From: Solidesulfovibrio carbinolicus
GTDB lineage: Bacteria > Desulfobacterota > Desulfovibrionia > Desulfovibrionales > Desulfovibrionaceae
Reading direction: 5' to 3'
Assembly: GCF_004135975.1 (NCBI RefSeq)
Contig: NZ_CP026539.1
Span: 62,001-126,000 of the forward strand
DNA: 64,000 nucleotides
This document shows, piece after piece, positions 17,941-64,000 of this stretch. Within the stretch, counting starts at the first letter, position 1, and each line of letters begins with the position of its first letter. A program made the translations under genes and the position numbers. The notes beneath the pieces are model-generated. The model saw only the letters and a program-made list of their open reading frames with translations, searched no databases and was not told where the DNA came from.

Positions 17941-18083
17941 GCAGACATCCTTGTCGGCCGGGGCCGGGGGCGCGGCGGCGTCTCGTGCCGCTTCCACGAA
18001 CGGCTCAGGGGACAATTCGCGGACAACAGCCTAAGTCCTGTAAATTTCTTGAAAAAAACTCGGACTTTCTAAGGGGCGCGACA

Positions 18084-19802: not shown

Positions 19803-19842
19803 GCGGTCTCCGGTCATGCTGGCGAAACCCTCGGGCGCGGGT

Positions 19843-38528: not shown

Positions 38529-38652
38529 CCCCCAACCGTCCCGGCGGGACGGCCGGACAGCCCGGCCGAACCCCGCCGCGACACAGCCGGCGGCCTCCCG
38601 CCCAGGCTCCGAAACGGGAACCAGGGACAGCCGTCAGCGCGAGGATGCGACC

Positions 38653-39459: not shown

Positions 39460-40390
39460 AACCTGTCTCGATCACGTCTACAAGCTGGCCTGCCGGGACG
39501 AGCGGGTGGTGTTTATCGGCTCCGACCTCGGGGCCGGGGTGCTGGACCAGTTCCGGCGGGAAATGCCCGAACGCTTCTTCATGGAAGGCATCGCCGAGGG
39601 GCATGTGGTGGGCATGGCCAGCGGCCTGGCCCACGAGGGCAAGATCGTCTACCTCAACACCATCCAAAGCTTCCTCACCCGGCGCTGTTACGAGCAGATC
39701 GTGCTGGACGCCTGCCTGCACAACCTAAACGTCCGCTTCATCGGCAACGGCGGCGGCATGGTCTACGCCCCCCTGGGACCGACCCACTGGGCCACGGAGG
39801 ACCTCTCCATCCTGCGCGTCATCCCCAACATGACCGTCCTGGTCCCGGCCGACGCCGAGGAAATGGCCCGGCTCATGCCGGCCACCCTGGACCACCGGGG
39901 GCCGCTGTTTATCCGGCTGGCCAAGGGCTACGATCCCGTCGTGACCCGGGAGGAGACCTTCGAGATCGGCCGGGCCTACAGCTACCGCGAAGGCGGCGAC
40001 GCCCTGATCGTCGGCTGCGGCGTGGTCCTTGGCCCCATGCAGGAGGCGGCCAAGCGGCTGGCCGCCCAGGGCGTCGAGGCCGGCGTGCTGCACCTGCCCA
40101 CCATCAAGCCCCTGGACGCCGAGGCGGTGCTGTCCCGGGCGGCCCGGGCGGCCTGCGTGGTGACGGTGGAGGAAAACACCGTTCTTGGCGGCCTTGGCGG
40201 CGCGGTGGCCGAACTCTTGGCCGAAGCCTGCCTGGAGAGGCCCTTGCGCTTCAAACGGATCGGCCTGGAAGACCGTTTTTCCAAGCATTACGGCTCGCAG
40301 CAGGACCATTTCGACCGTGTCGGCATCAGCGGGGAAGGCATCGCCGCAGCCGTGCTCGGCCTGCTGGGGCGCGCCCCGAACCGGCCCTGA
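39452..40390 (+). CDS. Transketolase, C-terminal subunit (pair 2)
   Basis: 312 residues. FFMEGIAEGHVVGMASGLA carries the Glu of the pyrimidine-binding domain; NGGGMVYAPLGPTHWATEDL and VLVPADAEEMARL follow, then the swivel domain VVTVEENTVLGGLGGAVAE. It completes pair 2 and probably acts on a sugar intermediate of this cluster rather than in central metabolism. The partner starts at 38653. Confidence 0.88.
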   Translation: MRKTCLDHVYKLACRDERVVFIGSDLGAGVLDQFRREMPERFFMEGIAEGHVVGMASGLAHEGKIVYLNTIQSFLTRRCYEQIVLDACLHNLNVRFIGNGGGMVYAPLGPTHWATEDLSILRVIPNMTVLVPADAEEMARLMPATLDHRGPLFIRLAKGYDPVVTREETFEIGRAYSYREGGDALIVGCGVVLGPMQEAAKRLAAQGVEAGVLHLPTIKPLDAEAVLSRAARAACVVTVEENTVLGGLGGAVAELLAEACLERPLRFKRIGLEDRFSKHYGSQQDHFDRVGISGEGIAAAVLGLLGRAPNRP

Positions 40391-42166: not shown

Positions 42167-43360
42167 ATGACCGTCGCCTGCCGACTGTGCCGATCCGACC
42201 GGGCCGCCCCCCTGCTCGACTTCGGGCCACAGCCCAATTCCATGCGCCTGCTGGCGCGCGCCGACGAGCCCTTCCAGACCCATCCCCTGGTCCTGTGGGC
42301 CTGCGCCGCCTGCGGCTTCGTCTTCATCGCCGACCCCATGCCGGCCGACGCCTTCTACACCAGCGTGCAGCAGCCCACCCTGACCTCGCCGCCGCCCCAC
42401 CTCGACGAGCTGGTACGAGAGATCGCCGCCGCCTGGCCGACCACGGCCCGCATCCTCGACATCGGGGCCAACAACGGCCGGCTGCTGGCCAGCCTGCGCC
42501 AGGCCGGCTTTGGCGCGCTGCACGGCGTCGAGCCCTCCGACATGCGGCTGGCGGCCCGGGAACTCGGCCTCGACGTGGCCGGCGGCTACTTCACCAACGC
42601 CTGGGCCCGGGATTTCATCGCCGCCCGGGGCCATCCCGATCTGGTCGTGTGCCGCCACGTCATCGAGCACGTCCAGGACCTGGACGACTTCGTGGCCGGG
42701 CTGGCCGCGCTCCTGGCCCGGGGCGCCGCCCTCATCCTGGAAACCCCGGACCTTGAGGCCACGGCCGAACGCGGCGACTGCAGCGTCATCTGGGAACAGC
42801 ACGTCAACTATTTCGACCTCCCCACCTTGGGCCGCCTGCTCGGGCGGCATGGGCTGGCCGTGGCCGACGCCCGCCGGATCGCCTTTGGCGGCGGGTCCCT
42901 GCTGTGCCGGATCGCCGCCGGCGACGCCCCGCCGCCGGCCCTCCCGGTCTCCCGGACGGCCCTGGCCGCCAACGTCCTTTACAGCGCGGCGGCCATCGGC
43001 GAGCTGGCCGCCGGCCTGCGCGCCAAGGGCAAGCGCCTGGCCGGCTTCGGGGCCGGGGAACGCGGGGCCATGGTCATCAACCTGGCCGGCCTGGGCGGCC
43101 TGCTCGACTACGTGGTGGACGACAGCCCCCACAAGGCCGGCCGGTTTCTGCCCGGCAGCCGGCTGCCCATCCTGCCAAGCGAAACCCTGCGCCGCCAGCC
43201 AGCGGATTACTGCCTGCTCTTTCCCATGAACGGCAAGGCCGTGGAAACGGCCATCATGGGCCGTTTCGCCGGCCTTACCGAAAACGGCACGGCCTTTATC
43301 GAACTGTTCCCGGCCTCGGGCGGCGTCTTGGCCGTCCACGAACCCGGAGCCGGGGCCTAG
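42167..43360 (+). CDS. C-methyltransferase-type protein (zinc-ribbon + MTase + Rossmann tail)
   Basis: 397 residues. N-terminal zinc site CRLC...CAACGF, methyltransferase motif ILDIGANNGRLLASL with CRHVIEHVQDLDDF, and a C-terminal Rossmann-like domain (LAGFGAGERGAMVINLAGL; YVVDDSPHKAGRFLPGS). This three-part layout is that of TylC3/NovU-type sugar C-3 methyltransferases. It would add a carbon methyl group to a keto-sugar bound to NDP, which fits the idea of a branched sugar in this locus. The family is well known; the particular sugar is inferred. Confidence 0.85.
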   Translation: MTVACRLCRSDRAAPLLDFGPQPNSMRLLARADEPFQTHPLVLWACAACGFVFIADPMPADAFYTSVQQPTLTSPPPHLDELVREIAAAWPTTARILDIGANNGRLLASLRQAGFGALHGVEPSDMRLAARELGLDVAGGYFTNAWARDFIAARGHPDLVVCRHVIEHVQDLDDFVAGLAALLARGAALILETPDLEATAERGDCSVIWEQHVNYFDLPTLGRLLGRHGLAVADARRIAFGGGSLLCRIAAGDAPPPALPVSRTALAANVLYSAAAIGELAAGLRAKGKRLAGFGAGERGAMVINLAGLGGLLDYVVDDSPHKAGRFLPGSRLPILPSETLRRQPADYCLLFPMNGKAVETAIMGRFAGLTENGTAFIELFPASGGVLAVHEPGAGA

Positions 43361-49939: not shown

Positions 49940-51151
49940 ATGCCCTCCCCCACTCCATGCCCTGTCTGCAGCGCCCGGGACGCCGCGCCCTTCCTGCACC
50001 GGCCCGACCATTTCCTCAGCATCTTCCTGGCCGACGAGGACATCCCCGGCATCGACGTGGAATTCGCCTTCTGCCCGACCTGCTGCCACATCTTCCTGCG
50101 CTCCGCCTACGACAATCCCCGCTACGAGGCCCTGGCCCGCCGGCTCTACCAACGCTACGCCCTGCTCGAGCAGGCCGTGCGCCCCTTTCCCCAGCGCGAC
50201 CGCCACTATTTGGCGGCCGTGGATTTCTTCGTCCAGGCAGCCGCCCCCGGAGACAAGCCCTTGTCCGTCCTGGACGTGGGCTCCAACCGGGGCGATTTCC
50301 TCTTCCTGCTCAAGGAGGCCCTGCCCCGCATCCGGGTCCAGGGCGTGGAGCCCTCGGCCCTGCCCTTCCACGGCGTGCCGACCATCAACCAATGTTTCGA
50401 GGATTGCCGGTTCGACGCCCCCTTTGACGTCGTCATCGCCCGGCACGTGGTGGAGCACCTGGCCAGGCCCCACCCCTTCATGGCCCAGGCGGCGCGCTGC
50501 CTTCGCGACGACGGGCTGCTGTTTCTCGAAGTGCCCAACCTCCACTACGACCTGCCGCGCGGCATCGAGAACTTCATCCCGGAACACATCCACCACTTTT
50601 CCCTGCATTCGCTTAAAACCCTGCTGTCCTGCTCGGGCCTGGAGCTTGTCCACATCGATGACTCCCGGCCCGAGGGCTTGCGCCTGCTGGCCCGCAAGAC
50701 CCAGGCCCCGGAGGACGCCGCCTGCCGCACGCGCCACGACCTGCCCGAGGCCATGGCCATCGAGCGCCGCCACATCGACGGCTACGCCGCCAAGATCGCC
50801 TACTGCGTCGAGCGCATCCGCCAGGCCGTGGAGGCCGGACGCCGGCCGGCCTTCTATGGCTTTGGCAACGTGTTTTTCTGCGTCCTGGCCGAACTGCGAA
50901 AACACCTGCCCCCGGGCGTCTTCGAGGCCGCCGGCCCGGTCATTCTCGACGACACGCCCTCCAAGATCGGCAAGGCCTTTCGCGGCATCCCCATCGTCTC
51001 CCCGGACCAGGGCCTTGCCCATGGCGATTTCGCCGTCATCGTCTGCACCATGAATCCAAGCCACAAGGAACTCATGCGCCAAAAGGCGGCGGCCCTGGCC
51101 GCCGGCCGGGCCATGGTCCTGACCGCCTGGGAAGAGAACGTCTATGTCTAA
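49940..51151 (+). CDS. C-methyltransferase-like protein (zinc-ribbon + MTase + Rossmann tail)
   Basis: 403 residues from ATG 49940 (AAAGGA site); a GTG at 49904 is in frame and could be the start. It has a CPVC...CPTCCHIF zinc site, MTase motif VLDVGSNRGDFLFLL with ARHVVEHLARPHPF, and a Rossmann-like tail (FYGFGNVFFCVLAELRKH; VILDDTPSKIGKAF). This is the same architecture as 42167 and 53130, so three C-methyltransferase-like proteins sit in one locus. It overlaps the next radical SAM gene by 8 bases. Confidence 0.82.
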   Translation: MPSPTPCPVCSARDAAPFLHRPDHFLSIFLADEDIPGIDVEFAFCPTCCHIFLRSAYDNPRYEALARRLYQRYALLEQAVRPFPQRDRHYLAAVDFFVQAAAPGDKPLSVLDVGSNRGDFLFLLKEALPRIRVQGVEPSALPFHGVPTINQCFEDCRFDAPFDVVIARHVVEHLARPHPFMAQAARCLRDDGLLFLEVPNLHYDLPRGIENFIPEHIHHFSLHSLKTLLSCSGLELVHIDDSRPEGLRLLARKTQAPEDAACRTRHDLPEAMAIERRHIDGYAAKIAYCVERIRQAVEAGRRPAFYGFGNVFFCVLAELRKHLPPGVFEAAGPVILDDTPSKIGKAFRGIPIVSPDQGLAHGDFAVIVCTMNPSHKELMRQKAAALAAGRAMVLTAWEENVYV

Positions 51152-52241
51152 GCACACGACCCCAAACGACGCCTACCGCATGGACGGCCACAAGCTTTAC
51201 TGGCACCTCGACCGCGTCCTGGCCTGGCAGCGCGGTGAACCTATCGCCCCGCTGCATATCGATTTCGGCATCACCACGGGCTGCAACTTCGCCTGCCGCT
51301 ATTGCTACGGCATGTTGCAGGGCCGAAAAGGCAAGAAAAACGCCTTCCATATGCCCCAGGACGCCATCCTGCGCTTTTTCACCGACGCCAAGGCCGTGGG
51401 CGTGCGCTCCATCGCGCTTATCGGCGAGGGGGAAAACACCCTCAACCCCGCCCTCTATCCGGCCATCGCCCACGCCGGCCGCATCGACCTCGATCTGAGC
51501 CTGGCCACCAACGGCCTGGAGCTGCCCCTTGCCGGCCTGGACGAGGCGCTGTCCGTGCTGCGCTGGATCCGGTTCAACATCAGCGCCGCCTCGCCCGAAG
51601 GCTACGCCGCCATCCACGGCGTCGGCCCGGCCGACCACGCCCGGGTGCTGGCCAACATCCGGGCCTGCGTGGAGCGCAAGCGCGCGCTGGGGCTTGGCGT
51701 CGCCATCGGCCTGCAGGCCGTGCTGTTGCAAGGCAATCTCCAGGAAGTGGTCCCCCTGGCCCGGCTGGGCCGGGAGCTTGGCGTGGACTATCTGGTCGTC
51801 AAACCCTGCTCCGACACCTACGACAGCGCCCTGGGCGCGCCCCTTGACGCCTACGAGCAGCTGGAAACCGATTTCGTCGAAGCCGAAGGCTTCTCGGGCG
51901 AGGGCTACAACGTCATCGTCAAGCGCCAGAAAATCGGCAACAAGGGCGTCAAAGCCTACCGGACCTGCTACGGCACGGAGTTCCTGCTGGCCATCAGCGG
52001 CAACGGCAACGTCTATCCCTGCGGCCACTGGTTCAAGTACGCCGACGACAAATACCTGATGGGCAACATCATCGAACAGCGTTTTTCCGACATCGTCGCG
52101 TCCCAGCGCTACGCCGACGCCCAGCGGGCCATCAAGAACGTCAACGTCAACAGGGACTGCGAAAGCAACTGCCGGCAGCACTACATCAACAACTTCCTGC
52201 AGATGCTGGCCGACAAGCCCGACCACATCAACTTCATCTAG
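51144..52241 (+). CDS. Radical SAM protein with SPASM-like C-terminus
   Basis: 365 residues. The cluster motif is TGC47NFAC51RYC54YGM; IALIGEGENTLNP and LATNGLEL follow. Later cysteines in YRTCYGTE, VYPCGHWFKY and DCESNCRQH suggest auxiliary cluster sites. The N-terminus (YRMDGHKLYWHLDRVLAW) and C-terminus (DHINFI) strongly resemble the minus-strand protein at 19843, a paralog that sits beside a sugar isomerase gene. Function unknown; it probably modifies a sugar or a peptide linked to the glycan. Confidence 0.87.
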   Translation: MSKHTTPNDAYRMDGHKLYWHLDRVLAWQRGEPIAPLHIDFGITTGCNFACRYCYGMLQGRKGKKNAFHMPQDAILRFFTDAKAVGVRSIALIGEGENTLNPALYPAIAHAGRIDLDLSLATNGLELPLAGLDEALSVLRWIRFNISAASPEGYAAIHGVGPADHARVLANIRACVERKRALGLGVAIGLQAVLLQGNLQEVVPLARLGRELGVDYLVVKPCSDTYDSALGAPLDAYEQLETDFVEAEGFSGEGYNVIVKRQKIGNKGVKAYRTCYGTEFLLAISGNGNVYPCGHWFKYADDKYLMGNIIEQRFSDIVASQRYADAQRAIKNVNVNRDCESNCRQHYINNFLQMLADKPDHINFI

Positions 52242-52251
52242 GGGAGGAGCC

Positions 52252-53109
52252 ATGCACGTCCTGCTTCTTGGCGCAACGGGAATGCTCGGCACGGCCTTTG
52301 CTTTTAAATTTGCCGAAAAAGGCCTTCCCTTCACCCCCCTGGGGCACCGGGACTTGCGCATCGAATCGGCCGACTCCGTGGCGGCGGCCTTCGCCGCCCA
52401 TCCCGCCGACGTGGTCGTCAACTGCACGGGCATCGTCAGCATCAATCCCTGCGAGGACGATCCCGAGCACTGCACCGCCGTCAACGCCCTGGGCGCGCTC
52501 TACGTCTCGCGCCAAGCGGCCGCCCGGGGCATGACCATGGTGCAGTTCAGCTCCCATGCCGTGTTCGACGGCCAGAAAGAAGGCTTTTACACCGAGGACG
52601 ACGTGCCCCGGCCCCAAAGCGTCTACGCCGTGTCGAAATACGCCTGCGAGGTCTACGCCGCCCTGTGCCCCAGCCACTACGTCCTGCGCGTGCCGGCCAT
52701 GTTCGGCCCCCGGCGTAACGACTCCCTGGGCTTTGTCGACAAGATGCTCGCCTTCATGGAACAGGGGCGCGAACTGCGCGTGGCCGACGACAAGATCGAT
52801 TCGCCGACCTACAGCCTGGACGTGGCCGAAACGGCCATCGGCCTGCTTTCGGACAAGGCCCCTTACGGCCTCTACCACGCCGCCAACGACGGCTGCGTGA
52901 GCTATTACGACTTCATCGACGCCGTGCGCGAGATGACCGGGTTGCAGGCGACCCTGCATCGGGCCAAGGACGCGGATTTTCCTTCCCGCGTGCCCAAGCC
53001 CTTGCGCACGGCCATGCGCTCGGTCAAACTCCCCGCCTTGCGCGGCTGGCGCGAAGCCCTGGCCGACTATCTCCAATCCCGCGGCCGCCAGGCCGGCCAA
53101 AGCCGTTGA
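52252..53109 (+). CDS. RmlD-like NAD(P)-dependent sugar reductase (SDR)
   Basis: 285 residues after a strong GGGGAGGA site. LLLGATGMLGTAFAF binds the cofactor; NCTGIVSINPCEDDP, FSSHAVFDGQKEGFYTED and the catalytic YAVSK, plus YGLYHAANDGCVSYYDF, identify the dTDP-4-dehydrorhamnose reductase-like group. It is the second such reductase here (the other at 43372), each next to a C-methyltransferase-like gene, consistent with reduction of a 4-keto sugar after methylation. Confidence 0.85.
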   Translation: MHVLLLGATGMLGTAFAFKFAEKGLPFTPLGHRDLRIESADSVAAAFAAHPADVVVNCTGIVSINPCEDDPEHCTAVNALGALYVSRQAAARGMTMVQFSSHAVFDGQKEGFYTEDDVPRPQSVYAVSKYACEVYAALCPSHYVLRVPAMFGPRRNDSLGFVDKMLAFMEQGRELRVADDKIDSPTYSLDVAETAIGLLSDKAPYGLYHAANDGCVSYYDFIDAVREMTGLQATLHRAKDADFPSRVPKPLRTAMRSVKLPALRGWREALADYLQSRGRQAGQSR

Positions 53110-53129
53110 CCGGCGGAGTCCGCATCCCT

Positions 53130-54263
53130 ATGCCCCACAGCCGTTGCCTTCTGTGCGCCCATGACGCCTTTCTGGACGTCTCCCCACCCGGCCTGGTCGG
53201 GGTCACCTCGGACTGCAAGCCCTGGCCCCGGGCCGGGGAGCTGCGCCTGTGCCGGCGCTGCGGCCATGTGCAAAAAGCCCTCACGCCCCAGTGGCTGCGG
53301 GACGTGGCCGAAATTTACGCCGGCTACGAACTCTATCCCTTAAGCGCCCTGTCCGAACAGATGATCCGCGTCGGCGACGGCTTCGTGTCCCGCAACGGCC
53401 ATCTGGCCGACCGGTTGGCCGGGGTTCATCCCATTGCGGAGACCGGCGACATTTTGGACATCGGCTGCGGCAACGGCGGTTTTTTGCGGGCGTTTTCGAA
53501 GCGTTTTCCCGGCTGGCGGCTTTTTGGCTGCGAACAGCAGGCGGACCGGCGGCAAGACATCCTGGGCCTGCCGGCGGCAGGCGGCTTCTACCAGGGCGAC
53601 ATCGAGGCCATCGACCGCCGGTTTGACGCCATTTCCCTGGTCTACGTCATCGAACACCTTTTTGACCCAGCCGCTGTCTTGCGGGCCATCCGCCAAAAGC
53701 TCGCTCCCGGCGGCTTCGTTTTCGTCAAGACGGCCGATCTGCGCACCGGCCCCTTTGATCTGGCCGTGGCCGACCACTGCCACCACTTCACCTTGGAAAT
53801 GCTCGCCTGCCTGCTTGGCCGGACCGGCTTTGCCGTGACCCGGGCCTTTGACGACTGGGTGGACAAGGAAATCGGGCTGGTGGCCGTGGCGGCGGACCAG
53901 CCCGCCCCCGGCCCCATGCCGCCGGTTCCCCTGGCCGAGGTCGAAGCCGTGGTGCGGGCCAATCTGGGGGTCATGGCCGCCATCCGGGACAAGGCGGCGG
54001 CCAGCGCCGTGCGCCCCCTGGGCATCCTGGGCACGGCCATTTCCGCCACCTGGCTGGCCAACCAGCTCGGCCCCGGCGCGGCCTCGTTTTTCGTGGACGA
54101 GGACACCTCCCGGGTCGGCCGGACCCATATGGACCGGCCGGTCCTGAGCCTGGACCAGGCCCCGGCGGGTTGCGCCGTCTGCGTCCCCTTTCCGCCGCCG
54201 GTGGCGGCCAGGATCGTCTCCCGCGTGGGCCAAACGCGGCCGGACATCACGTTTTTGGCCTGA
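53130..54263 (+). CDS. C-methyltransferase-like protein (zinc-ribbon + MTase + Rossmann tail)
   Basis: 377 residues from ATG 53130 (GGAG at 53114-53117); a TTG at 53106 overlapping the previous stop is an alternative. CLLC...CRRCGHVQK binds zinc; ILDIGCGNGGFLRAF is motif I, with VYVIEHLFDPAAVL and GGFVFVKTADL. The tail LGILGTAISATWLANQLG and VDEDTSRVGRTHMD is Rossmann-like. This is the third C-methyltransferase-like protein in the locus; its partner reductase lies immediately upstream. Confidence 0.82.
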   Translation: MPHSRCLLCAHDAFLDVSPPGLVGVTSDCKPWPRAGELRLCRRCGHVQKALTPQWLRDVAEIYAGYELYPLSALSEQMIRVGDGFVSRNGHLADRLAGVHPIAETGDILDIGCGNGGFLRAFSKRFPGWRLFGCEQQADRRQDILGLPAAGGFYQGDIEAIDRRFDAISLVYVIEHLFDPAAVLRAIRQKLAPGGFVFVKTADLRTGPFDLAVADHCHHFTLEMLACLLGRTGFAVTRAFDDWVDKEIGLVAVAADQPAPGPMPPVPLAEVEAVVRANLGVMAAIRDKAAASAVRPLGILGTAISATWLANQLGPGAASFFVDEDTSRVGRTHMDRPVLSLDQAPAGCAVCVPFPPPVAARIVSRVGQTRPDITFLA

Positions 54264-54307
54264 CCTCGGCCGGTCCATTTGCCAACCCGACAGGAAAACG
54301 GTGCGCC

Positions 54308-56401
54308 ATGTTCAGAACGGTTTTGGCCGATACGCCCCTTGGCGACGACGGCTCCCTTTTCATCTTCCTCGGCGCGCCGGCCGCCGCCGGCATCAAGCGC
54401 AAGCTGGCCTTCCCGGCGGTCAACGAGGCGGTCCTGCAGGGCGTGACGGCGCTTCCGGTCCAGGCCCTGCTTGACGGCGTGACCGTGGTCATCGACGCCG
54501 CCGCCTACGCCAGGGACAAGGTCTGGATCGATGCCGTGCAAAAGCAGCTGGCCATGGTCTACTGCAAGCACGTGCTGTTCCCCCGCCAGTCGGGCACCAT
54601 CCCGGATGTGGCCGGAGCCCGGCAGGAAGAGGGCTATTTACTGCTGCAGCGGGAAATCCAACGGGCCGAGAACGTCGCCCTGTATTTGCAATCACCCTTG
54701 TGCAACCGGCTGCGGGGCCTGGGCCGGGGTCTGGCCACGGCCGTCCTGCTGCCCGGGCCATCCCTCAACAAGGTCGCGCCCTTGCTGCCGGAACTGCGGG
54801 AAAAATGCCTGATCGTGTGCGTGCCGCGCACCGTCGCCTTTTGCCTTCAGGCCGGGGTCGAGCCGGATTTCGTCGTAAGCCTTGACACGGCAGCGCGCAT
54901 GCAGCACCTGGTCCGTCCATCCCGGCCCCTGCCCGAGACCTACCTGGTGGCCTTGAGCCCCGGGGCCCTGGCCCGGCCCGTGCGGCGCTATCGGGGCCTC
55001 TTCCTAATGGACAGCTTCGACACGTCCATCCTGCCCAATCCCTACCGCCTGCGGGAATCCTGGCTGAGCTGCGCCATTTCCACCCTGGGATTGGCCGAGC
55101 TGCTGGGGGCCGGCGTCGTCTTCCTGGCCGGCGGCGATCACTCCTGGGAAGACCCCGACTCCCTCTCCACGTACTGGAACACGATCCCGTCTGCGCCCTT
55201 CAAGGGGAACGACACGGCCTTCCGACCCCACGACGGGCCGGCCATGGTCCGGGACCTGGAACAATGGGCCCCGATCGACGTGCCCGAGGGGGCGCACATG
55301 CAGGCCCCGGCCTCGGGCCCCACCCCCGTGGGCCTGCCCGACCTCTACGCCCGGTTCCCTCTGCGCGACCGTAACGGCAACATGGTCTTCACCTATTTCC
55401 ACTATTTCGCCATCAGCGCGGAGCTGGAACAGGTGGCGCGGGAGATGGCCCAGGTTGGCATCCGCTGCCATCTGCTGGAGGAGCGCGGCATTCTGTCGCC
55501 CGAGGTTTTCAGGCCCGGCGGCCGGGACCTGCTGGCGACCTTCCCCCCCATCGACAGACCCGCCTTCCTCGCCAGGGCGGACGCGGCCCATTCCCGGCGG
55601 GAAGCCGTCCGCCACGCCCAGTATGCCCGGGAGCTCGAAGCCACCGCCAACAACGTGTCCAAGCAGGCCGCCTACCTCACCCTGCGCCTGCTTGACGGCG
55701 AGGTTACTGAGGCCCGGCAGCATCCTTACGTGCAGGCCATCGAACAGGCCTCGATCCAGCGCAAGATGCCTGCCGTGCGAGACTACGCCTTCCGGGTCAA
55801 GTTCGATTGCGACTACGCCTTCTACGTCCACCAGTTGCGCAGCCTCGTCATCGACTCCAGGGAATTCCCCCCCCTGAAAGACACCTTCTACCAGCAGCGC
55901 ATCCGGCAGTGCCAGGAGCGGGTGACCCCCGAGAACTTCGAGCAGGTCCGCAAGGAACTGTTTCCCCAGGAAGAGGCCCTCGCCGTTCAGACCACCGCCC
56001 TGGCCTGCCGCACCTGGGCGGCCAGGCTGGAAGAAGGCGCGGCTCTGTGCCGGGTGTATCAGGCCGCCGCCGCTGGGGAGGTGGTGGTGCTGTGGTGCCT
56101 GCCCGAGGAAAAGGCCGACTGCTTCAAAGCCGTACGGCAAGCCGTCGGGGCGTTTCGGCCGCACTTCGCCACCCTGACCATGCAGGAGGAACTGGCCTCG
56201 GCCAGCAAGACCATCGAGTACGTGTATTTCGAGCATTTCCTGCTCTACGCCCACGCTTGCCCCCACGCCCAAGTGACCAGCCGGGGCTTTGCACGGGAGT
56301 ACGGCAACCTGCTGGAGCTGGCGGACCGCAAGCGCCTCGTCCCCATGCATGTACTGGAATGCCGATTCCTCCCCGGTGAGGACAAATGTCCTCGCGCCTG
56401 A
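54308..56401 (+). CDS. DUF115/MAF-type glycosyltransferase
   Basis: 697 residues from ATG 54308. The central region has VLLPGPSLNKVAPLLPELR, IVCVPRTVAFCLQAGVEPDFVVSLDTA and VVFLAGGDHSWEDPDSLST. These are marks of the DUF115 domain found in motility-associated factor (MAF) glycosyltransferases and in MptE-like proteins. MAF enzymes transfer Pse/Leg-type sugars to flagellin Ser/Thr. With pseB, pseC, pseF and pseG present this is the best candidate for the final transfer step. The link to flagellin is inference; no flagellin gene is in the window. Confidence 0.78.
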   Translation: MFRTVLADTPLGDDGSLFIFLGAPAAAGIKRKLAFPAVNEAVLQGVTALPVQALLDGVTVVIDAAAYARDKVWIDAVQKQLAMVYCKHVLFPRQSGTIPDVAGARQEEGYLLLQREIQRAENVALYLQSPLCNRLRGLGRGLATAVLLPGPSLNKVAPLLPELREKCLIVCVPRTVAFCLQAGVEPDFVVSLDTAARMQHLVRPSRPLPETYLVALSPGALARPVRRYRGLFLMDSFDTSILPNPYRLRESWLSCAISTLGLAELLGAGVVFLAGGDHSWEDPDSLSTYWNTIPSAPFKGNDTAFRPHDGPAMVRDLEQWAPIDVPEGAHMQAPASGPTPVGLPDLYARFPLRDRNGNMVFTYFHYFAISAELEQVAREMAQVGIRCHLLEERGILSPEVFRPGGRDLLATFPPIDRPAFLARADAAHSRREAVRHAQYARELEATANNVSKQAAYLTLRLLDGEVTEARQHPYVQAIEQASIQRKMPAVRDYAFRVKFDCDYAFYVHQLRSLVIDSREFPPLKDTFYQQRIRQCQERVTPENFEQVRKELFPQEEALAVQTTALACRTWAARLEEGAALCRVYQAAAAGEVVVLWCLPEEKADCFKAVRQAVGAFRPHFATLTMQEELASASKTIEYVYFEHFLLYAHACPHAQVTSRGFAREYGNLLELADRKRLVPMHVLECRFLPGEDKCPRA

Positions 56402-56431: not shown

Positions 56432-58825
56432 ATGAACACCCTCTCCAAGAAAGACGCCCAATGGGACCGCATCGCCGTCTCGGGCAAGGTGCTGGTGGTC
56501 AAGCCAGACGACAACGGATTCTATCCCGTGGGCTTTTCCTACCTCCTGGGCGCCTGGGATGAGGTCGGCATCCGTTACGACTATGTTGACATGTTCCTGT
56601 ATCCCGACACGGATATCGAAGACCTGCTGCGTCGCAACGAGTACCTGGCCGTGTGCACCGGCGGGCTCCTTGGGTCCCTGACCTTCTTCCAGACCTTGTT
56701 CGCCCGTGTCAAAAAGACAAAGCCCGACCTGCCATGCGTGCTTGGCGGCAACGTGACCACCGACTTTCCCACCGCCCTGCTCTTTTCTCAAACCGAGGCG
56801 GATTACCTTGTCTTCGGCGAGGGCGAGATCACCGGCACCTTGCTGCTGTCGCACATCCAGCAGCACGGCGCGGCCCCCACGGACCTCCTGGGCGTGGCCT
56901 ACCGCTCCACCGCCACGCCAGAGGGCTTTATCCGCAACAGACACCGGCCGCCCCTGGACCTCGCGGCCCACAACTGGCAGCCGACCTGGAAATTTCTGGA
57001 GGTGGACCGCTACGCCCAACGGCCCCACTGCACCCTGCGACTGTTCCCCGTGCTGACGGGTCGGGGCTGCAAGGGGCGCTGCTCCTTCTGTTCTCCCACG
57101 AACGGGGCCTACAGAGGCCGCCCCCTGGATCACGTGTTCCAGGAGATCGAGGGCATCATCAAGACGTACGACTTCGACTACCTGCACTTCCTCACCGAAA
57201 TCTTCTTTCAGCAAGAGGCGGAGGTGCTGGAGTTCTGCCGCCGCTACAAGACCCTTGCCCGCCCCAAGCCCTGGGCTTGCCTGCAGCGGATGGATACCTC
57301 GCCCCGGGTGCTGGCCGCCATGAAGGACGCCGGGTGCTTCACCATCAACGTCGGCGTCGAGAGCGGAAGCGACCGCGTGCTGCGGGAGATGAAAAAGGAC
57401 ATCACCGTGGCGCAGATCCGCTCGTTCGTCGACCGAATGAAGGCCTGCGACATGGGGGTGGAAGCCTCGTTCATGGTGGGCAACTACGACGAGACCGAGA
57501 CGGACATCATCAGCACGGTGGACCTGATGCTGGAACTTGGCGTGGGCGGACCCAAGGCCATGTGCGTCAACTACCCAGGCACCCTCAACTTCATTCGGGC
57601 CCAGAAGCGCGGGCTGGTGCCGGACGTGCTGCAGTACGCCAAGGCGCTGCGACGCGCCTACACCTTCGACTGGCTGCAGCACATCGAGGCCCACAAGTCG
57701 GGAGACATCCAGTACCTGAACATCACCGCCATGGACGACGACACCTTGTTCGAGGTCGTGGTGCGGGAACTGCGGCGGCTGCACGAGTACGGGTACCACG
57801 TTCGGGACGTGCAGGCGACGCCCGTTCCCCAGGCCGCCGGGGACGCGCTGCCCGAGGCCTACGACCTGCGCGGGGCGTGCCCGTTCTGCGGGGCTGGCAT
57901 GTCGGCCCGGGTCTACCTGGACGATTTCCAGTCGTTCGAGGACGCCGCCTGCCCCCACTGTCTGGCCTACCAGCAAAAGTCCTTCTTCGCGCCCCTGGAT
58001 GTGCCGGAGGTGCGCGTCGCCTTCGCCGAACGGCGTCCCAGGCTTGATAAGGCGCGTCGCTGCGTGCTCCTGGGGCCGGACCAGGCCATCCGGACCGTGC
58101 TGCGTCGGGGGTGGGCGGGGTTCGACTTCTCCCGGGTGGTCGGCGTCGTCCCCTTGAAGGAAGGCAACCCGTGTCAGGCCCGGTTCCTCGGCCACCTGCC
58201 TGTCCTGGATCTGGCGGTGCTGCGGAACCATGGCGTGGACCTGGCGGTGTCCGTGGCCGCCGGTCCCGCAGGCCTGCGGGACAGCCTGGGCGAGGCGGCC
58301 ATGGAGACCTTGCGGCGCCAGGGCGTGGATGTCGTCTCCCTGTTTCCATTCGGCGTCATCGGCCGCGACGTGCCCGTGACGGACCTGCCGGCCGGCAAGG
58401 TCCTGGCGGTGGCTTCGGCCCAGCCGCCCGCGGTGCGCAGCCTGCTGCAGGACCTGCGTCGCGCCGGCTGCGAGGTCTCTCTCCTCGTTCCGCAGCCCAA
58501 GCAGGGGGCCTACCTGGAGCACCTCACCGGACAGGAACACATCTTCCCCGGAAAGATGTTCCACGCCCAGGCCATGTCCGAAGCCCTGCTCCAGGCCGTC
58601 CGCCAGGAGGGCTACGACTACGCCGTGTTCCCCTACTCCCAGTCCCTGGAGTTCTACGAGAACGTGCTGAAATGTATCATCGCCTGCGGCATTGACGACA
58701 TCTACATCTACCACGCCAACAACAGCACGGTGTCCCAGGAGGATCACATGGCCTTCAAGCTGCCGCATCACGTCAGGATGCGCGCCATGGGACACCGGCC
58801 CTGCGAAGCCGCGTTCCTCCCATGA
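56432..58825 (+). CDS. Giant B12-radical SAM fusion protein, paralog A
   Basis: 797 residues, AAGGAG site. Order of parts: B12-type Rossmann domain (about 18-165; LGGNVTTDFPT, YLVFGEGEIT), radical SAM core with TGRGC213KGRC217SFC220 and VGVESGSDRVLREMKKDIT, and a zinc-ribbon (C483PFC486...C507PHC510). A C-terminal half of about 260 residues follows with two Rossmann-like parts (RCVLLGPDQAIRTVLRRG; KVLAVASAQPPAVRSLLQ) and a shared FYENVLKCIIACGIDDIY motif. Such a tail on a radical SAM protein is unusual. Its paralog (775 aa) is convergent at 58979-61306. The chemistry is unknown. Confidence 0.85.
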   Translation: MNTLSKKDAQWDRIAVSGKVLVVKPDDNGFYPVGFSYLLGAWDEVGIRYDYVDMFLYPDTDIEDLLRRNEYLAVCTGGLLGSLTFFQTLFARVKKTKPDLPCVLGGNVTTDFPTALLFSQTEADYLVFGEGEITGTLLLSHIQQHGAAPTDLLGVAYRSTATPEGFIRNRHRPPLDLAAHNWQPTWKFLEVDRYAQRPHCTLRLFPVLTGRGCKGRCSFCSPTNGAYRGRPLDHVFQEIEGIIKTYDFDYLHFLTEIFFQQEAEVLEFCRRYKTLARPKPWACLQRMDTSPRVLAAMKDAGCFTINVGVESGSDRVLREMKKDITVAQIRSFVDRMKACDMGVEASFMVGNYDETETDIISTVDLMLELGVGGPKAMCVNYPGTLNFIRAQKRGLVPDVLQYAKALRRAYTFDWLQHIEAHKSGDIQYLNITAMDDDTLFEVVVRELRRLHEYGYHVRDVQATPVPQAAGDALPEAYDLRGACPFCGAGMSARVYLDDFQSFEDAACPHCLAYQQKSFFAPLDVPEVRVAFAERRPRLDKARRCVLLGPDQAIRTVLRRGWAGFDFSRVVGVVPLKEGNPCQARFLGHLPVLDLAVLRNHGVDLAVSVAAGPAGLRDSLGEAAMETLRRQGVDVVSLFPFGVIGRDVPVTDLPAGKVLAVASAQPPAVRSLLQDLRRAGCEVSLLVPQPKQGAYLEHLTGQEHIFPGKMFHAQAMSEALLQAVRQEGYDYAVFPYSQSLEFYENVLKCIIACGIDDIYIYHANNSTVSQEDHMAFKLPHHVRMRAMGHRPCEAAFLP

Positions 58826-58978
58826 GGTAAGTGGACGGGAGCGGCACCGGCAAATTCAGGCCGCTACGACCGCTACAATCGACTGAGCGTACGATTTTTC
58901 CCGTTTTCTGAGGTTGCCCCTGTTACCTCCATTAAAAGACATCGCCCCGACTGGGCCTCATCAGGCAATATCTCTCCG

Positions 58979-61306
58979 TCAGGATGGCCTTGGAACGAGC
59001 GGCATGGACGGAGGATAGGGCATGGAGACCAGTCGTCGCCGTTCCTCGTCGGGGACCTGACTGTTGTTGACATGCCAGGCGTACGCCACGGGAATGCCGC
59101 AGGCGGCCAAACATGCCAACACGTTGCCGTATCCCGTCAACTCTTTGATAAACGGCACCACCGCGCAGTCCGCGTCGGAGGTGAGCGCCGCCTCCGGCAG
59201 GGTTTGCGCGTTGAAAAGCGAGCCAGGACAGGTAATGGTTGAACCATTCACCAGGTCTTCCACTTCGATGAGGGAAGGTGAATCCTGGAGGATCAAAACC
59301 GAGACTGTGCAGCCCCTGGCCCGCAACGATCGCAGCAGTTCGCGCACCGGCTCCTGCCTGGCGCAACAGGCCACCAGCACGTGGGCGCCGGCCAGGGACT
59401 CCAGGCAACATTCCACGCCCAGACGACCGTAAGGAAAGACCGAACGTACCCCAAGGCGGCCGGCCTCGTGCAAGGCGCCCAGGGCTCGGAAGCCCGCCCC
59501 TCCCCGGCTGATGAGGTTGGACAGGGCATCCCCGGCTGCGGCGCCTAGGGCCACCAGCGTGTCCGCGCTGTGCGCCACCTCCTCCGGTGAAAGTTGCCGA
59601 AGATTGCCGATCCAGCTCCCCTCGTGCAGGGGATCGCTGTCGGCGGAACGCAGAAAGCCCGCCACCTTGTCATACGGGAACCCTTCCACCCCGAGCTTGA
59701 GGAACGCCCGCACCTGGTCGGCCGTCCCCACCACGGCAATGCTTCCGGCCGACTCCAGTTCCACCAGAGCCGCCTCCTGGGCCTGCCGCAGAACCGGAAT
59801 AATCCGGGCGGGAAAGTGCACGTGGGGTTCACCGCATTCCGGACACAGGTGTTCCTGGAATGCCGAGGGGTCGTCGATGCTCGCCTTCTTTTCCACGATG
59901 CCGCGGCAGATGGGGCATGTCCCGCGCAGCTGGTAGACGATCCCGTCCTGGGTGCTGGCCGTCACTTGACGGTAGCAATATCCTTGGGAATACAGCCGCC
60001 GCATTTCGCGGACCACGGTGGCGAACAGCAGGTCGTCATCCATGGCGGTAATGTTGAGGTAGCGTCGTTTGCCGGAATAATGGTCCTCCATTTGCCGCAG
60101 ATAGGAGGGATTGTAGGCGTCGTGTGGGTCCAGAATGTACTGCAGATCGTCACGAACCAGGCCCAGCCTCCGCGCGCGCTGGTAGTTGAGGGTGCCCGGA
60201 TAGGTGATGCACAAGACCATGGGTCCGAAGGCGTCGAGGTCGAGCATCAAGTCCACGGTTTTGGCCATGTCCTCGGGGGTCTCCTCGAAGTTGCCAAAGA
60301 TAAACGATGCCTCGACTTGGATCTCCTGTTCCTTGAGGGCGGCGATATAGGCCCGGGCCTGGTCGGTGGTAATGTTTTTCTTCATCTTTTTGAGGATGGC
60401 GTCGCTGCCGCTTTCCAGACCCACGGTCACGGTGAAGCACCCCGCTTCCTTCATGAAGGCGAGCACTGACAGCGGCGTATCCATGCGCTGGGGGCACATC
60501 CACGGCTTGCGGCCCTTGAGGCGCGAATACCCCCGGCAAAACGCAATAATCTGTTCTTCAGTTTGAAAAAATACTTCGTTAATGAAGTAGAAATAATCGA
60601 AATCGTAGTGGGAGATCAGGTATTCCAGCTCGGCGAGGACATGTTCCACGGGCCTGCCCCGGTAACGACCGTTGGTGGGAGAGCAGAAGGCGCAGCGGCC
60701 CGTACAGCCCCGCCCAGTCAGCACCGGGAAGAACCGCTTCTGCAGTTTTTGGGAGTAGGAGTACCGGTCCACCTCCACGAAGTCCCAGGTCGGCATCCAG
60801 TTGCGGCTGGTCAGATCCAGGAAAGGCCGTCGGGCGTTGCGGACGTGCGATCCTGGCGCCTGGGGGGTCCGGTAGGCGACGCCTTCCAGGGAGGTGGGGC
60901 TGATGCCGTGGACGTCGATGTGCTGCAGCAGCAAGGTGGCGGTAATCTCTCCCTCGCCGATGACCAGATAATCTATATCCAGGTACTCGAAGAGGATCTG
61001 GGAGGAGAAGTCCACGACGATGTTGCCGCCCAGTATGCAGGCGAGGCGGGGATTGACCCGCTTGGCCGTGGCGAAGATTTCCTTGAAGTGGGGAAGGGAC
61101 CAGAGCAACCCCCCTACGCACACGGCCAGGTAGTCGTGGGTACGCAGATGGGCTTCCAGGTCGAACGTGGGGTGGAGATGGAGGTCAATGTAATCGAACT
61201 CGATCCCGGCCGATTTCAAGGCTGTGGCCACGTAAGCGTAGCCGATGGGGAAGAAGTAGTTATCCGACGGTTTCACCAGGAGGACTTTACGTGACAGGGC
61301 GGGCAT
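58979..61306 (-). CDS. Giant B12-radical SAM fusion protein, paralog B
   Basis: 775 residues; the start ending at 61306 follows a GAGGA site, while another Met 12 bases upstream lacks one. B12-type domain (about 8-150; LGGNIVVDF, YLVIGEGEIT), radical SAM core with TGRGC201TGRC205AFC208 and VGLESGSDAILKKMKKNIT, a CPICRG...CPECG zinc-ribbon, then the same two-part C-terminal region as the 56432 protein, ending with GYGNVLACLAACGIPVAY. The two genes are convergent with 153 bp between them, so the pair arose by duplication with inversion or by independent insertion. The function is unknown. Confidence 0.85.
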   Translation of the reverse strand: MPALSRKVLLVKPSDNYFFPIGYAYVATALKSAGIEFDYIDLHLHPTFDLEAHLRTHDYLAVCVGGLLWSLPHFKEIFATAKRVNPRLACILGGNIVVDFSSQILFEYLDIDYLVIGEGEITATLLLQHIDVHGISPTSLEGVAYRTPQAPGSHVRNARRPFLDLTSRNWMPTWDFVEVDRYSYSQKLQKRFFPVLTGRGCTGRCAFCSPTNGRYRGRPVEHVLAELEYLISHYDFDYFYFINEVFFQTEEQIIAFCRGYSRLKGRKPWMCPQRMDTPLSVLAFMKEAGCFTVTVGLESGSDAILKKMKKNITTDQARAYIAALKEQEIQVEASFIFGNFEETPEDMAKTVDLMLDLDAFGPMVLCITYPGTLNYQRARRLGLVRDDLQYILDPHDAYNPSYLRQMEDHYSGKRRYLNITAMDDDLLFATVVREMRRLYSQGYCYRQVTASTQDGIVYQLRGTCPICRGIVEKKASIDDPSAFQEHLCPECGEPHVHFPARIIPVLRQAQEAALVELESAGSIAVVGTADQVRAFLKLGVEGFPYDKVAGFLRSADSDPLHEGSWIGNLRQLSPEEVAHSADTLVALGAAAGDALSNLISRGGAGFRALGALHEAGRLGVRSVFPYGRLGVECCLESLAGAHVLVACCARQEPVRELLRSLRARGCTVSVLILQDSPSLIEVEDLVNGSTITCPGSLFNAQTLPEAALTSDADCAVVPFIKELTGYGNVLACLAACGIPVAYAWHVNNSQVPDEERRRLVSMPYPPSMPLVPRPS

Positions 61307-61350
61307 GTTCTTCCTCATTGTTGCAGTCGTTTCGGCGTATTGCGGGTCCA

Positions 61351-61476
61351 GGGGACCACAGCGGCCAGCTCCGCCGGGTCTGCGGGCGAGAGCACGCGCA
61401 TGTCGGAGGTGGCACGGCAGATGGCGATGTCCTCCTGGCACTGGCGGATGGCGTCGTCCGGCCCACGTTCAAGCCC
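61351..61476 (-). pseudogene. Transketolase C-terminal subunit remnant
   Basis: On the minus strand this stretch reads GLERGPDDAIRQCQEDIAIC followed by RATSDMRVLSPADPAELAAVV. It aligns well with GLDVGPDGATHQALEDIAIY and VVSPADPHELASVL of the intact transketolase C-subunit at 29354. Only about 42 codons of the roughly 310 survive, and no start codon with a ribosome site is present. It lies between the toxin-antitoxin pair and the radical SAM gene, marking an old deletion or rearrangement junction. Confidence 0.6.
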
Positions 61477-61558
61477 GGTCCTGCACGCGCACACCCTTGG
61501 CTTTTTTGAAGCATTCATCCGTCAACGGCGGGTTGTCGGGATCGGAAAGCCCCATCCG

Positions 61559-61855
61559 TCAGTACCCGGCTTCTTTTTGGTGGCGCAGGGCCAACACCAG
61601 GATCATTTCGGCATGCAACTCGTAGACCAGCACATACCCGGACAGGCCGAAGGGAATCAGCAATTCCCGGTGTTCCGGGTCCAAATCCTCGGCCGGACGG
61701 CCGGCGTTGGGAAATTTTTTCAAGATAGCCGCGTATTTTCTGATGGCCGACACCGCGGCCCGCGCGGCGTCGGCGTCCTTTTCGGCAAGGAAACGGTAGG
61801 CCCGCTGCACGCCCAGGAGCGCGGCAGGCGACCACACCAGCTTCAAATGTGGCAT
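61559..61855 (-). CDS. ParE/RelE-family toxin
   Basis: 98 residues. LVWSPAALLGVQRAYRFLAEKDADAA, AILKKFPNAGRPAEDL and GYVLVYELHAEMILVLALRHQKEAGY follow the ParE/RelE toxin pattern, a small alpha/beta fold that poisons gyrase or translation. It starts 13 bases inside the upstream antitoxin gene, as in classic antitoxin-toxin operons. Which target it has is not visible from sequence; ParE is slightly favoured by the antitoxin type. Confidence 0.88.
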   Translation of the reverse strand: MPHLKLVWSPAALLGVQRAYRFLAEKDADAARAAVSAIRKYAAILKKFPNAGRPAEDLDPEHRELLIPFGLSGYVLVYELHAEMILVLALRHQKEAGY

Positions 61856-62136
61856 TTCGGCGGTTCCACGTCGTTTCCCGCTTCCAACTCGGCCAGCCAG
61901 GCGTCGGCTTCCTCGGCCGTCACATGCAGACCGGTCAGCATAAAGGCCTCATGGGCGGCCAGGGCTTCCTGGCGCAAGGCTTCCCGCTGCTCTTCCCTGG
62001 CCACATACGTTTCCAGCGCCTGGAGCATGAGCGCGTGCGGCGTGCGCTTGCGCATCCGCGCCAGCTGTTGCAACCGCTCCCGCAAGGCCACGGGAAGCTT
62101 GATGCTCGTCGGCGTGGCCTGAGTCTGCGTCGGCAT
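61843..62136 (-). CDS. Ribbon-helix-helix antitoxin (ParD/CopG-like)
   Basis: 97 residues after an AAGGAGGA site. The start TPTSIKLPVALRERLQQLARM with RTPHALMLQALETYV is the ribbon-helix-helix DNA-binding domain; the C-terminal tail (ADAWLAELEAGNDVEPP) would wrap the toxin. It should neutralise the ParE-like protein encoded downstream and repress its own operon. A pair of direct repeats at 62163-62179, about 27 bp before the start, is a candidate operator. Confidence 0.85.
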   Translation of the reverse strand: MPTQTQATPTSIKLPVALRERLQQLARMRKRTPHALMLQALETYVAREEQREALRQEALAAHEAFMLTGLHVTAEEADAWLAELEAGNDVEPPKCHI

Positions 62137-62428: not shown

Positions 62429-63103
62429 CTACACCGCGAACAGCTGGCGGGCGTTTTGCAAATCTTCCTCGAAATCGACCTCGATGCAGCGGTAGTCCGA
62501 CACGTCCATGGGCACGAAGGTCACGCCGCGCTCGATGACCAGTTCCATGGCCTTCTCAAAATAATCCTTGTCCCCGCACTCCCGAAGCGCCTGCCGGAAG
62601 ACTTCCAGGTGATGGGCGCCGATGGTGTTGATGCCCAGGGCCTCGCCTTCGGGTTCGCTCACGGTCTTGGAGATCTCCACAATGCCGCCCCGATGGTCGG
62701 TGCGGTACTTGACCTCTTCCTCGGCGCACTTCTTCTTGTCCACGGCCACCACGTTGCCGCCCCGGGCGATCATGTCGGCGATGATCTGGGGATCGAACAC
62801 CACGTCGCCGTTGACCCACAGCGCGTCCTCACGCTCGACATGCTCCAGGGCGCACAGCAGGCTTTTGGAGGTGTTGGTCAGGTAAAATTCCGGGTTGTAC
62901 TTGTACAGGACGCTGGGAAAATGCTCCATTAAAAGCGCCATCTTGAACCCGACGACCACGATGATCTCGCTCAGGCCGTTTTCCCGCAAAATGCGGATCT
63001 GCCGGCCCATGATGGTTTCTCCGCTGGGCAGCTGGGACAAGGCCTTGGGAAACGGCTTGCCCAGCCGGGAACCGACGCCGGCCGCCAGAATGATCGCTTT
63101 CAT
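62429..63103 (-). CDS. NTP transferase (LicC/GlmU-type nucleotidyltransferase)
   Basis: 224 residues. The nucleotide-binding loop is AIILAAGVGSRLGKPFPKAL, with VVVGFKMALLMEHFP, LWVNGDVVF and YRCIEVDFEEDL typical of small cytidylyltransferases that activate choline, glycerol or sugar phosphates. Its start overlaps the stop of the CDP-glycerol glycerophosphotransferase-like gene by four bases, so it likely supplies that enzyme's activated donor, for example a CDP-linked alcohol. Confidence 0.82.
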   Translation of the reverse strand: MKAIILAAGVGSRLGKPFPKALSQLPSGETIMGRQIRILRENGLSEIIVVVGFKMALLMEHFPSVLYKYNPEFYLTNTSKSLLCALEHVEREDALWVNGDVVFDPQIIADMIARGGNVVAVDKKKCAEEEVKYRTDHRGGIVEISKTVSEPEGEALGINTIGAHHLEVFRQALRECGDKDYFEKAMELVIERGVTFVPMDVSDYRCIEVDFEEDLQNARQLFAV

Positions 63104-64000
63104 GGGAACCTCTCGTTGTTGGGGTTCACGTCAGGGGATCGGCCCAGGGCCGTCGAAACCTCCGTCAGGGCCCCAAGCAGGCGCTGCCCCGCCCGGGCAT
63201 CGGGCTCGGCAAAAGACAGTTCCTTAAGCTTCTGCCGAGCCTGGATAAAGTCGTCCTTGCCGTCAAGCAGATCGGCCATGGCGGCAAGCAAGCTTTTGGT
63301 GTCGCGCGCCTTGGGGCCTGGAGTGAAGGCGTCGTAGTCAAAGAGCAGTTCGCGGTTGCGCGTGACGTACGCCTCAAAGTCGTAGGGAAAAAAGAGCATG
63401 GGCTTGTCGGTCAACAGGAAATCGAAATAGATGGAGGAATAATCCGTCATCAGCAGGTCGGCCAGGCGCAGCAGCGGGTAGGCGTCGCTTTCCGGGGGAC
63501 AAAAGCGCAAATGCTCGATCTGTCCCGTAAAATCGAGCCTGATGTAGGGATGGAACTTGCAGACGAGCAACACGCCGCGTGCTCGGGCAAAGTCCGCGAA
63601 CAACGGGTAATCAAACGCGCCGTCGCCCCAGGGATCGCCGCCGAGATCCCGGAAGGTCGGCATGTAAAACACGATTTTCAGGCCTTGCTTTTTCGCCCTG
63701 ACCAGCTCGACGTACAGGGTCTGGTCGACGTTGATCATGTCGAGCTTGTCCGGGGCGCGCTGCAAGGCGTCGTTGCGCGGATAGCCCAGGTCCCAGAAGG
63801 CCTTGGCGCGAAAGGCCCGGGCAAAGGCTTTTTCCCGGAAAAAGGGGGAAGTGGACAGCACGGCGTCGTAGCCGGAATAGCCAACGGTCAGATCCCGGGC
63901 CTTTTCCGGGTTCATGTTCACGGCGGACTGAATTTCGGGAAAGCCGATGGCCTTGAGCGGAATGCCGTGCCACAGCTGCACCAGAAAGGCCCCCTGGGTG
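63100..64000 (-). CDS. CDP-glycerol glycerophosphotransferase-like protein (TagB/TagF family), N-terminus outside window
   Basis: The gene runs off the right edge; about 299 C-terminal residues are visible. VQLWHGIPLK, VLSTSPFFREKAF, GYPRNDAL, VFYMPTFRD, CKFHPY and the LMTDYSSIYFDFLLTDKPMLFFPYD region are the hallmark motifs of the TagB/TagF glycerophosphotransferase domain. It would add glycerol-phosphate or a similar group to a surface polymer. The GTG codon at 63981 in front of QLWHG is internal, not the true start. It is translationally coupled to the NTP transferase. Confidence 0.85.
   Translation of the reverse strand, partial: TQGAFLVQLWHGIPLKAIGFPEIQSAVNMNPEKARDLTVGYSGYDAVLSTSPFFREKAFARAFRAKAFWDLGYPRNDALQRAPDKLDMINVDQTLYVELVRAKKQGLKIVFYMPTFRDLGGDPWGDGAFDYPLFADFARARGVLLVCKFHPYIRLDFTGQIEHLRFCPPESDAYPLLRLADLLMTDYSSIYFDFLLTDKPMLFFPYDFEAYVTRNRELLFDYDAFTPGPKARDTKSLLAAMADLLDGKDDFIQARQKLKELSFAEPDARAGQRLLGALTEVSTALGRSPDVNPNNERFP

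Follow-up and report, generated by a model that had tools for sequence, protein, structure and literature searches.

Two convergent B12-binding radical SAM proteins with a Cys4 ribbon and two Rossmann-like modules in a glycan island of Solidesulfovibrio carbinolicus

Class B radical S-adenosylmethionine (SAM) methylases, among them GenK, GenD1, TsrM and TokK, carry an N-terminal B12-binding Rossmann domain followed by a core with a CxxxCxxC motif. Radical SAM methylases add carbon at positions beyond the reach of ordinary methyltransferases. The B12-then-core layout is documented in passages on TsrM, TokK and OxsB (PMC8992657, PMC13331322), and the words zinc, sugar and glycosyl are absent from the main text of a 2025 review of the class, as far as its accessible part goes (PMC13331322). 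GenD1 and GenK, both class B radical SAM methyltransferases, take gentamicin precursors as substrates, and AprD4 is described as a radical SAM diol dehydratase whose substrate is the sugar part of an aminoglycoside precursor (PMC5461906). Here we describe two adjacent genes, A and B, in a 64,000-nucleotide stretch of Solidesulfovibrio carbinolicus DNA (contig NZ_CP026539.1, positions 62,001 to 126,000; 'the window'). Their products share the class B layout but add a ribbon and Rossmann modules after the core. No title or abstract opening in the open-access PMC literature, among the matches listed, describes this architecture or its context.

Our preferred interpretation, to which we assign a probability of about 50%, is that A and B are radical SAM enzymes of the cobalamin-dependent class B type and modify sugars destined for a surface or flagellar glycan, with the tail holding the sugar; the modification is probably a C-methylation. 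A sugar substrate is suggested because one module of the tail is shared with sugar C-methyltransferases and because relatives are fused to a glycosyltransferase domain. A subfamily dedicated to sugars, if one exists, would suggest that surface sugars with branches or C-methyl groups still await description.

Architecture and integrity of the gene pair

The stop codons of A and B face each other across 153 bp (Table 1), in line with the initial annotation of the window, which had noted two convergent B12-radical SAM proteins of about 780 residues; they have 797 and 775. The B12-binding family PF02310 exceeds its Pfam cut-off of 32.1 bits in both proteins (43.4 bits in A, 59.5 in B), as PF04055 does its own, and the CxxxCxxC motif is present in each core. 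Beyond these two families, no Pfam domain is over its curated cut-off in A or B. The core is followed by a four-cysteine (Cys4) ribbon, likely a zinc ribbon, whose profile matches ribosomal protein L33 (E 0.001), and then by two Rossmann-like modules. The predicted model of the A tail (predicted local distance difference test, pLDDT, 66; predicted template modelling score, pTM, 0.50) indicates, with moderate confidence, two Rossmann-like units; contacts between the units are not supported by the model, and the best fold-search matches are generic. The domain order first read from the letters is thus borne out by Pfam, by motif and by this moderate model. The same reading had the tail end in N-V-L-x-C-[IL]-x-A-C-G-I. 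The motif is indeed in both proteins, but in A it occupies residues 744-754, 43 residues short of the C-terminus. The tail does lie outside named families, as proposed: the two Rossmann-like modules were found in none, and among the best 25 of 27 NCBIfam families for A and the best 25 of 31 for B, no curated cut-off of a named B12-radical SAM family (HpnJ, BchE, ApyD, PhpK and others) is reached.

A and B are sister copies in the same subfamily. They pair with support 98/98 in a 12-row tree built without four intended outgroup rows, and share 44% identity over A residues 15-771 (BLASTP, E 0). Identity is 53% in the B12 domain (67/127) and 56% in the linker and core (142/255), then 49% in the post-core segment (34/70) and 29% in the ribbon (16/56). 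Module 2, with 38% (47/124, A 646-775), is better conserved between the two than module 1, with 23% (25/109). Both copies look intact: 63 positions are invariant across seven relatives, of which A retains 57 and B 60, and the cluster cysteines are unaffected by the changes. An inactive second copy, which had been considered, is therefore not indicated. Their own genome holds no further full-length member, the runner-up place matching only A 90-396 at 32%. Scanning positions 58700-61600 for terminators and promoters yielded signals no more frequent than in shuffled sequence.

Table 1. Coordinates of genes A and B, their domains, neighbouring genes and two fused relatives (window positions unless a locus is named).
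Feature	Position	Strand	Evidence
Gene A, B12-binding radical SAM protein, 797 residues	56432..58825	+	Open reading frame (ORF) with ATG start; Pfam B12-binding 3.6e-11, Radical_SAM 3.4e-15
A: B12-binding domain, residues 30-134	56519..56833	+	PF02310
A: radical SAM core, residues 208-365, CxxxCxxC = C213/C217/C220	57053..57526	+	PF04055; cysteines invariant in nine members
A: Cys4 ribbon, residues 476-535 (C483, C486, C507, C510)	57857..58036	+	Three of four Cys invariant in nine members
A: Rossmann module 1, residues 536-640, Methyltransf_14-like	58037..58351	+	hhalign 95.9% to PF08484-type domains
A: Rossmann module 2, residues 646-797, putative orphan, contains NVLKCIIACGI	58367..58822	+	38% identity to B
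Gene B, B12-binding radical SAM protein, 775 residues	58979..61306	-	ORF with ATG start; Pfam B12-binding 3.6e-16, Radical_SAM 1.2e-15
B: B12-binding domain, residues 13-124	60935..61270	-	PF02310
B: radical SAM core, residues 196-353	60248..60721	-	PF04055
B: Cys4 ribbon, residues 455-509	59780..59944	-	Motif and alignment
B: Rossmann module 1, residues 513-610	59477..59770	-	Profile comparison and alignment
B: Rossmann module 2, residues 627-775, contains NVLACLAACGI	58982..59428	-	PF13579 below cut-off, E 0.0017
L067 B12-radical SAM and PF13524 fusion, single ORF, PF13524 after ribbon and module 1	L067 6112-9054	-	
L068 B12-radical SAM and PF13524 fusion, single ORF, PF13524 after ribbon and module 1	L068 8079-11021	+	
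MptE-like protein, same strand as A, 30 bp upstream	54299..56401	+	PF01973 2.7e-13
SAM methyltransferase	53106..54263	+	Methyltransf_23 9.3e-20
RmlD-like reductase	52252..53109	+	Pfam; homologues beside 2/8 relatives
SPASM radical SAM protein	51144..52241	+	Homologues beside 3/8 relatives
TcaB9-type sugar 3-C-methyltransferase (Methyltransf_13, Methyltransf_23, Methyltransf_14)	42167..43360	+	PDB 4rv9, E 1.2e-40

A small subfamily with a variable C-terminal slot

The ribbon and module 1 together appear to mark a small, patchy subfamily of B12-radical SAM proteins, rare and scattered. Ten proteins were found: A, B, L024, G083, G344, G352, G370, G545, G559 and G141. L024, from a Rhodospirillales metagenome-assembled genome, is the sole one of seven confirmed loci that is similar over most of the query (53%), while G083, G344, G352 and G370 are full-length relatives found among 395 genomes of the phylum. 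Of 141 genomes in G083's own order, 22 gave matches at E 1e-60 or below; among the matches listed, those of G083, G545 and G559 extend beyond model position 600 of 719. In the orders of G352, G344 and G370 (11, 46 and 18 genomes), nothing apart from these three passed the set thresholds. None of the matches listed from 58 further genomes in the genus, family and order extends over the tail; eleven of these genomes reach E 1e-30 or better, with matches that run no further than about model position 430 of 810. A module 1 profile hits seven places in six of the 395 genomes: A and B, four members already known, and G141. The last, read as an ORF only, is another B12-radical SAM-type protein and shows the core motif, module 1 and the cysteines of the ribbon. 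The viral contigs, searched with the core, returned one distant locus, L049. All nine aligned members have the B12 domain, the core, the Cys4 ribbon (three cysteines invariant) and module 1, and PF02310 is over its cut-off in six of the seven besides A and B. On its own, the ribbon extends beyond the subfamily: a G018 protein (L046 8722-10791, + strand) combines B12-type, radical SAM and Cys4-ribbon sequence with a different tail that has no module 1 match. This protein had initially been taken as an outgroup and turned out to carry the ribbon. The combination of ribbon and sugar-methyltransferase-type module could serve as a domain signature for finding such enzymes.

Profile comparison identifies module 1 as a remote homologue of PF08484, the C-terminal domain of sugar C-methyltransferases (hhalign 95.9%, single-pair E 5.6e-9, 76 columns). 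The module 1 profile had nine rows and the PF08484-type profile 11, of which ten were distinct (L088 being the window's own gene). Control comparisons gave 61% for PglD_N, 17% for the N-terminal domains of three island proteins, 0.4% for a short-chain dehydrogenase/reductase (SDR), 0.5% for a SAM-methyltransferase domain and 0.6% for a B12 domain; among the domain types tried, the sugar C-methyltransferase form seems closest. In the relative at L067, PF08484 itself scores 11.7 bits (Pfam cut-off 23.5). TcaB9 and the mycarose 3-C-methyltransferases have a C-terminal domain that resembles module 1, and one such enzyme is encoded in the same island. They also have a SAM-methyltransferase domain, whereas Pfam, at E up to 1, matches no class I SAM-methyltransferase domain in either A or B. 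The zinc domain Methyltransf_13 likewise has no Pfam match in either protein and is not alignable with the ribbon (hhalign 11.8%). A match of the tail to a known methyltransferase, which would have spoken against its novelty, was thus found in part, and with the C-terminal rather than the catalytic domain. The larger part of the tail can accordingly be read as a ribbon plus a sugar-C-methyltransferase-type module, and the architecture appears both real and unusual.

What fills the slot after module 1 differs between members. L041-L044 stop after roughly 20-100 residues, and L024 has a distinct end of about 240 residues without a Pfam match. In L067 and L068, a glycosyltransferase domain follows, PF13524 Glyco_trans_1_2 (E 1.3e-13 and 4e-17), which we take to be GT-B and CgeB-like. 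In A and B the same slot holds module 2, and Pfam finds neither PF13524 nor another GT-B C-terminal half in them. Within the plasmids, viral contigs and 395 genomes searched, module 2 appears to be an orphan private to the pair. Its profile gave 17 matches at E up to 0.1 in the 395 genomes (own included), of which only those to A and B are convincing (3e-91 and 8e-81); the next, at 0.005, was taken as chance. The plasmids yielded nine records with a best E of 3 and no relative, and the viral contigs nothing for the tail or for module 2; G390 gave a weak match to the tail (E 9.5e-4). The 'shared novel C-terminal half' of the initial annotation is therefore narrowed to module 2, the ribbon and module 1 being common to the wider subfamily. 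The search for a stand-alone form of the tail gave none: in the 395 genomes, convincing matches to module 2 are confined to A and B, and the places with module 1 are all B12-radical SAM proteins.

Weak glycosyltransferase signals suggest that module 2 resembles one half of a GT-B enzyme. All are below cut-off: Glyco_trans_4_4 in B (E 0.0017), Glyco_transf_4 in A (0.052) and EarP in A (0.013 in Pfam, 0.0021 in NCBIfam). Given that module 2 sits after module 1, as does the extra part of L067 and L068, it could be the eroded N-terminal half of a GT-B glycosyltransferase inherited from an ancestor like those fusions. A direct comparison with the C-terminal part of L067 and L068 gives this origin no support (hhalign 0.4%), and we regard it as somewhat unlikely. 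Shared ancestry of module 2 with module 1, PF08484, PglD_N, SDR, SAM-methyltransferase or B12 domains, with the MptE-island N-terminal domains, or with that L067/L068 part, was rejected at hhalign values of at most 7.6%.

Proposed chemistry and competing readings

In the mechanism we infer, cob(I)alamin would be methylated by one SAM, and a second SAM would be cleaved at the [4Fe-4S] cluster. The resulting 5'-deoxyadenosyl radical would abstract a hydrogen from an unactivated sugar carbon, to which methylcobalamin would then donate its methyl group. GenK and GenD1, with their gentamicin precursors, set a precedent for a C-methylation of this kind (PMC5461906). The ribbon and the Methyltransf_14-like module, the latter being the part shared with sugar C-methyltransferases, would hold a nucleotide- or carrier-linked sugar, so that module 1 would be the site of sugar contact. 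The slot after it would be open to interchangeable partners, being filled by a glycosyltransferase domain in two relatives and by the orphan Rossmann module in A and B, and the two copies may serve two positions or two sugars. Pse-type sugars, proposed earlier as substrates, might be among those methylated. A rather improbable extension is that the unit of B12-radical SAM part, ribbon and Methyltransf_14-like module is an exchangeable sugar-modifying machine whose slot partner receives or passes on the sugar. Module 2 would then be a new sugar- or carrier-binding fold, and C-methylation and glycosyl transfer would be coupled in one polypeptide on the growing surface glycan.

The best PDB sequence match of the core is AprD4 (6fd2, E 4.7e-18, positions 162-403), which raises the alternative that A and B modify sugars without methylating them, by an AprD4-like dehydration or deoxygenation, an epimerisation or a rearrangement, the B12-type domain not being a methyl carrier. 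A gene for an RmlD-like reductase lies upstream of A, and AprD4 is described, in a section of one source, as partnering with the reductase AprD3 (PMC5461906); methyl groups could come from other methyltransferases of the island. The AprD4 match is, however, limited to the common core, the 457-residue chain of AprD4 is far shorter, and the NCBIfam AprD4 model (NF033070), whose cut-off is 500, gives 54.3 and 64.9 bits. With PF02310 over its cut-off in both A and B, we consider a non-methylating enzyme unlikely, and prefer sugar C-methylation.

Several observations besides the AprD4 match weigh against the proposed sugar C-methylation. The highest scores for curated enzyme families fall well short of their cut-offs: 90.1 bits for HpnJ in A (cut-off 577.6), and 113.9 for BchE (cut-off 481.35) and 113.3 for HpnJ in B. 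PF08484 is unmatched in A or B by Pfam even at E up to 1, and PglD_N resembles PF08484 itself (hhalign 66%), so module 1 is of a broad Rossmann type. The B12 domain of L041 falls just under the Pfam cut-off (29.7 against 32.1 bits), and the full-length model is not usable (pLDDT 47.8). Finally, none of eight relative loci has a homologue of the PseB, the MptE-like protein or the TcaB9-type methyltransferase encoded in the window, and marker genes are also found at comparison loci, both transketolase halves at one of ten and the C half at one more.

For these last counts, the window proteins, including PseB but not PseC, were compared with the ORFs of 16-20 kb stretches surrounding eight relatives from other genomes, accepting matches of at least 80 residues at E up to 1e-8. 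The ten comparison loci (11-30 kb) were three archaeal loci, three plasmid matches to A, three loci from related genomes and one viral contig; the Azospirillum and Smac51 plasmid matches were used only in this way. Homologues of the B12-radical SAM protein encoded at 18084 are present at six of the eight relative loci, weakly at two. Four of eight have both transketolase halves, and four each the SDR of 27742 and the radical SAM protein of 41097; three have the SPASM protein of 51144, and two each the RmlD-like reductase, the methyltransferase of 40420, NeuB and the CMP-sugar (cytidine monophosphate-sugar) synthetase. At the comparison loci, the SPASM protein and NeuB occur at 1/10 each, and the RmlD-like reductase and 40420 methyltransferase at 0/10. 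The nucleoside triphosphate (NTP) transferase, the TagF-like protein and several other window proteins have homologues at none of the eight relative loci. The numbers are small and the stretches of unequal length; they seem to favour a sugar-type setting with transketolase chemistry over a Pse/MAF setting as such.

A substrate other than a sugar, such as a carrier lipid or the side chain of a peptide or protein (flagellin, for example), would leave module 1 as a structural spacer. The sub-cut-off scores for HpnJ, BchE, ladderane-lipid and RiPP (ribosomally synthesized and post-translationally modified peptide) enzymes would fit such a non-sugar partner from the island, as would the MptE-like gene that directly precedes A. 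Those scores are far under their cut-offs, two relatives carry a fused glycosyltransferase domain and several adjoin sugar-type genes; we hold this to be the least probable of the readings considered here.

Genomic setting of the island

A and B lie in a plasmid-like glycan island. PseB, PseC and PseF are over their NCBIfam cut-offs, and a NeuB/PseI-like protein is under its own; SPASM radical SAM proteins, transketolase halves and several methyltransferases are also encoded. The pair had been described as flanking the end of a Pse/MAF block. The MptE-like gene, presumably MAF-type, as the initial annotation also had it, does lie 30 bp before A, but it scores 17.8 bits with the NCBIfam model FlagModPseD (cut-off 670), and PseB, PseC and PseF are about 20-31 kb upstream of A.

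The window encodes three more B12-radical SAM proteins (6896-8365, +; 16408-18015, -; 18084-19817, -), five in total. A transketolase N half lies at 28596-29354 and a second N-like/C pair at 38353-40390, within what is a nonulosonate-type island. The product of 21512-22474 (-) has a Pfam match to an ArgZ-like C-terminal domain and another, under its cut-off, to deoxyhypusine synthase; the gene adjoins SIS and HldE-like sugar genes.

The final 7.8 kb of the 132.7 kb contig (G000:C2 124898-132673) share 98.6% identity with a part of S. magneticus pDMC1 whose annotation includes ParA, and this near-identity marks the contig as plasmid-like. The right edge of the window (62898-64000, 1.1 kb) has 99.5% identity to the same plasmid. 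A plasmid block of Brachyspira is reported to contain both a radical SAM protein and a glycosyl transferase (PMC4267127). Between B and the NTP transferase gene, positions 61558-62052 resemble plasmid RelE/ParE toxin and CopG antitoxin pairs. On pDMC1, a Tn3 transposase gene adjoins a shortened copy of the NTP transferase gene, the copy in the window (62429-63103) being longer.
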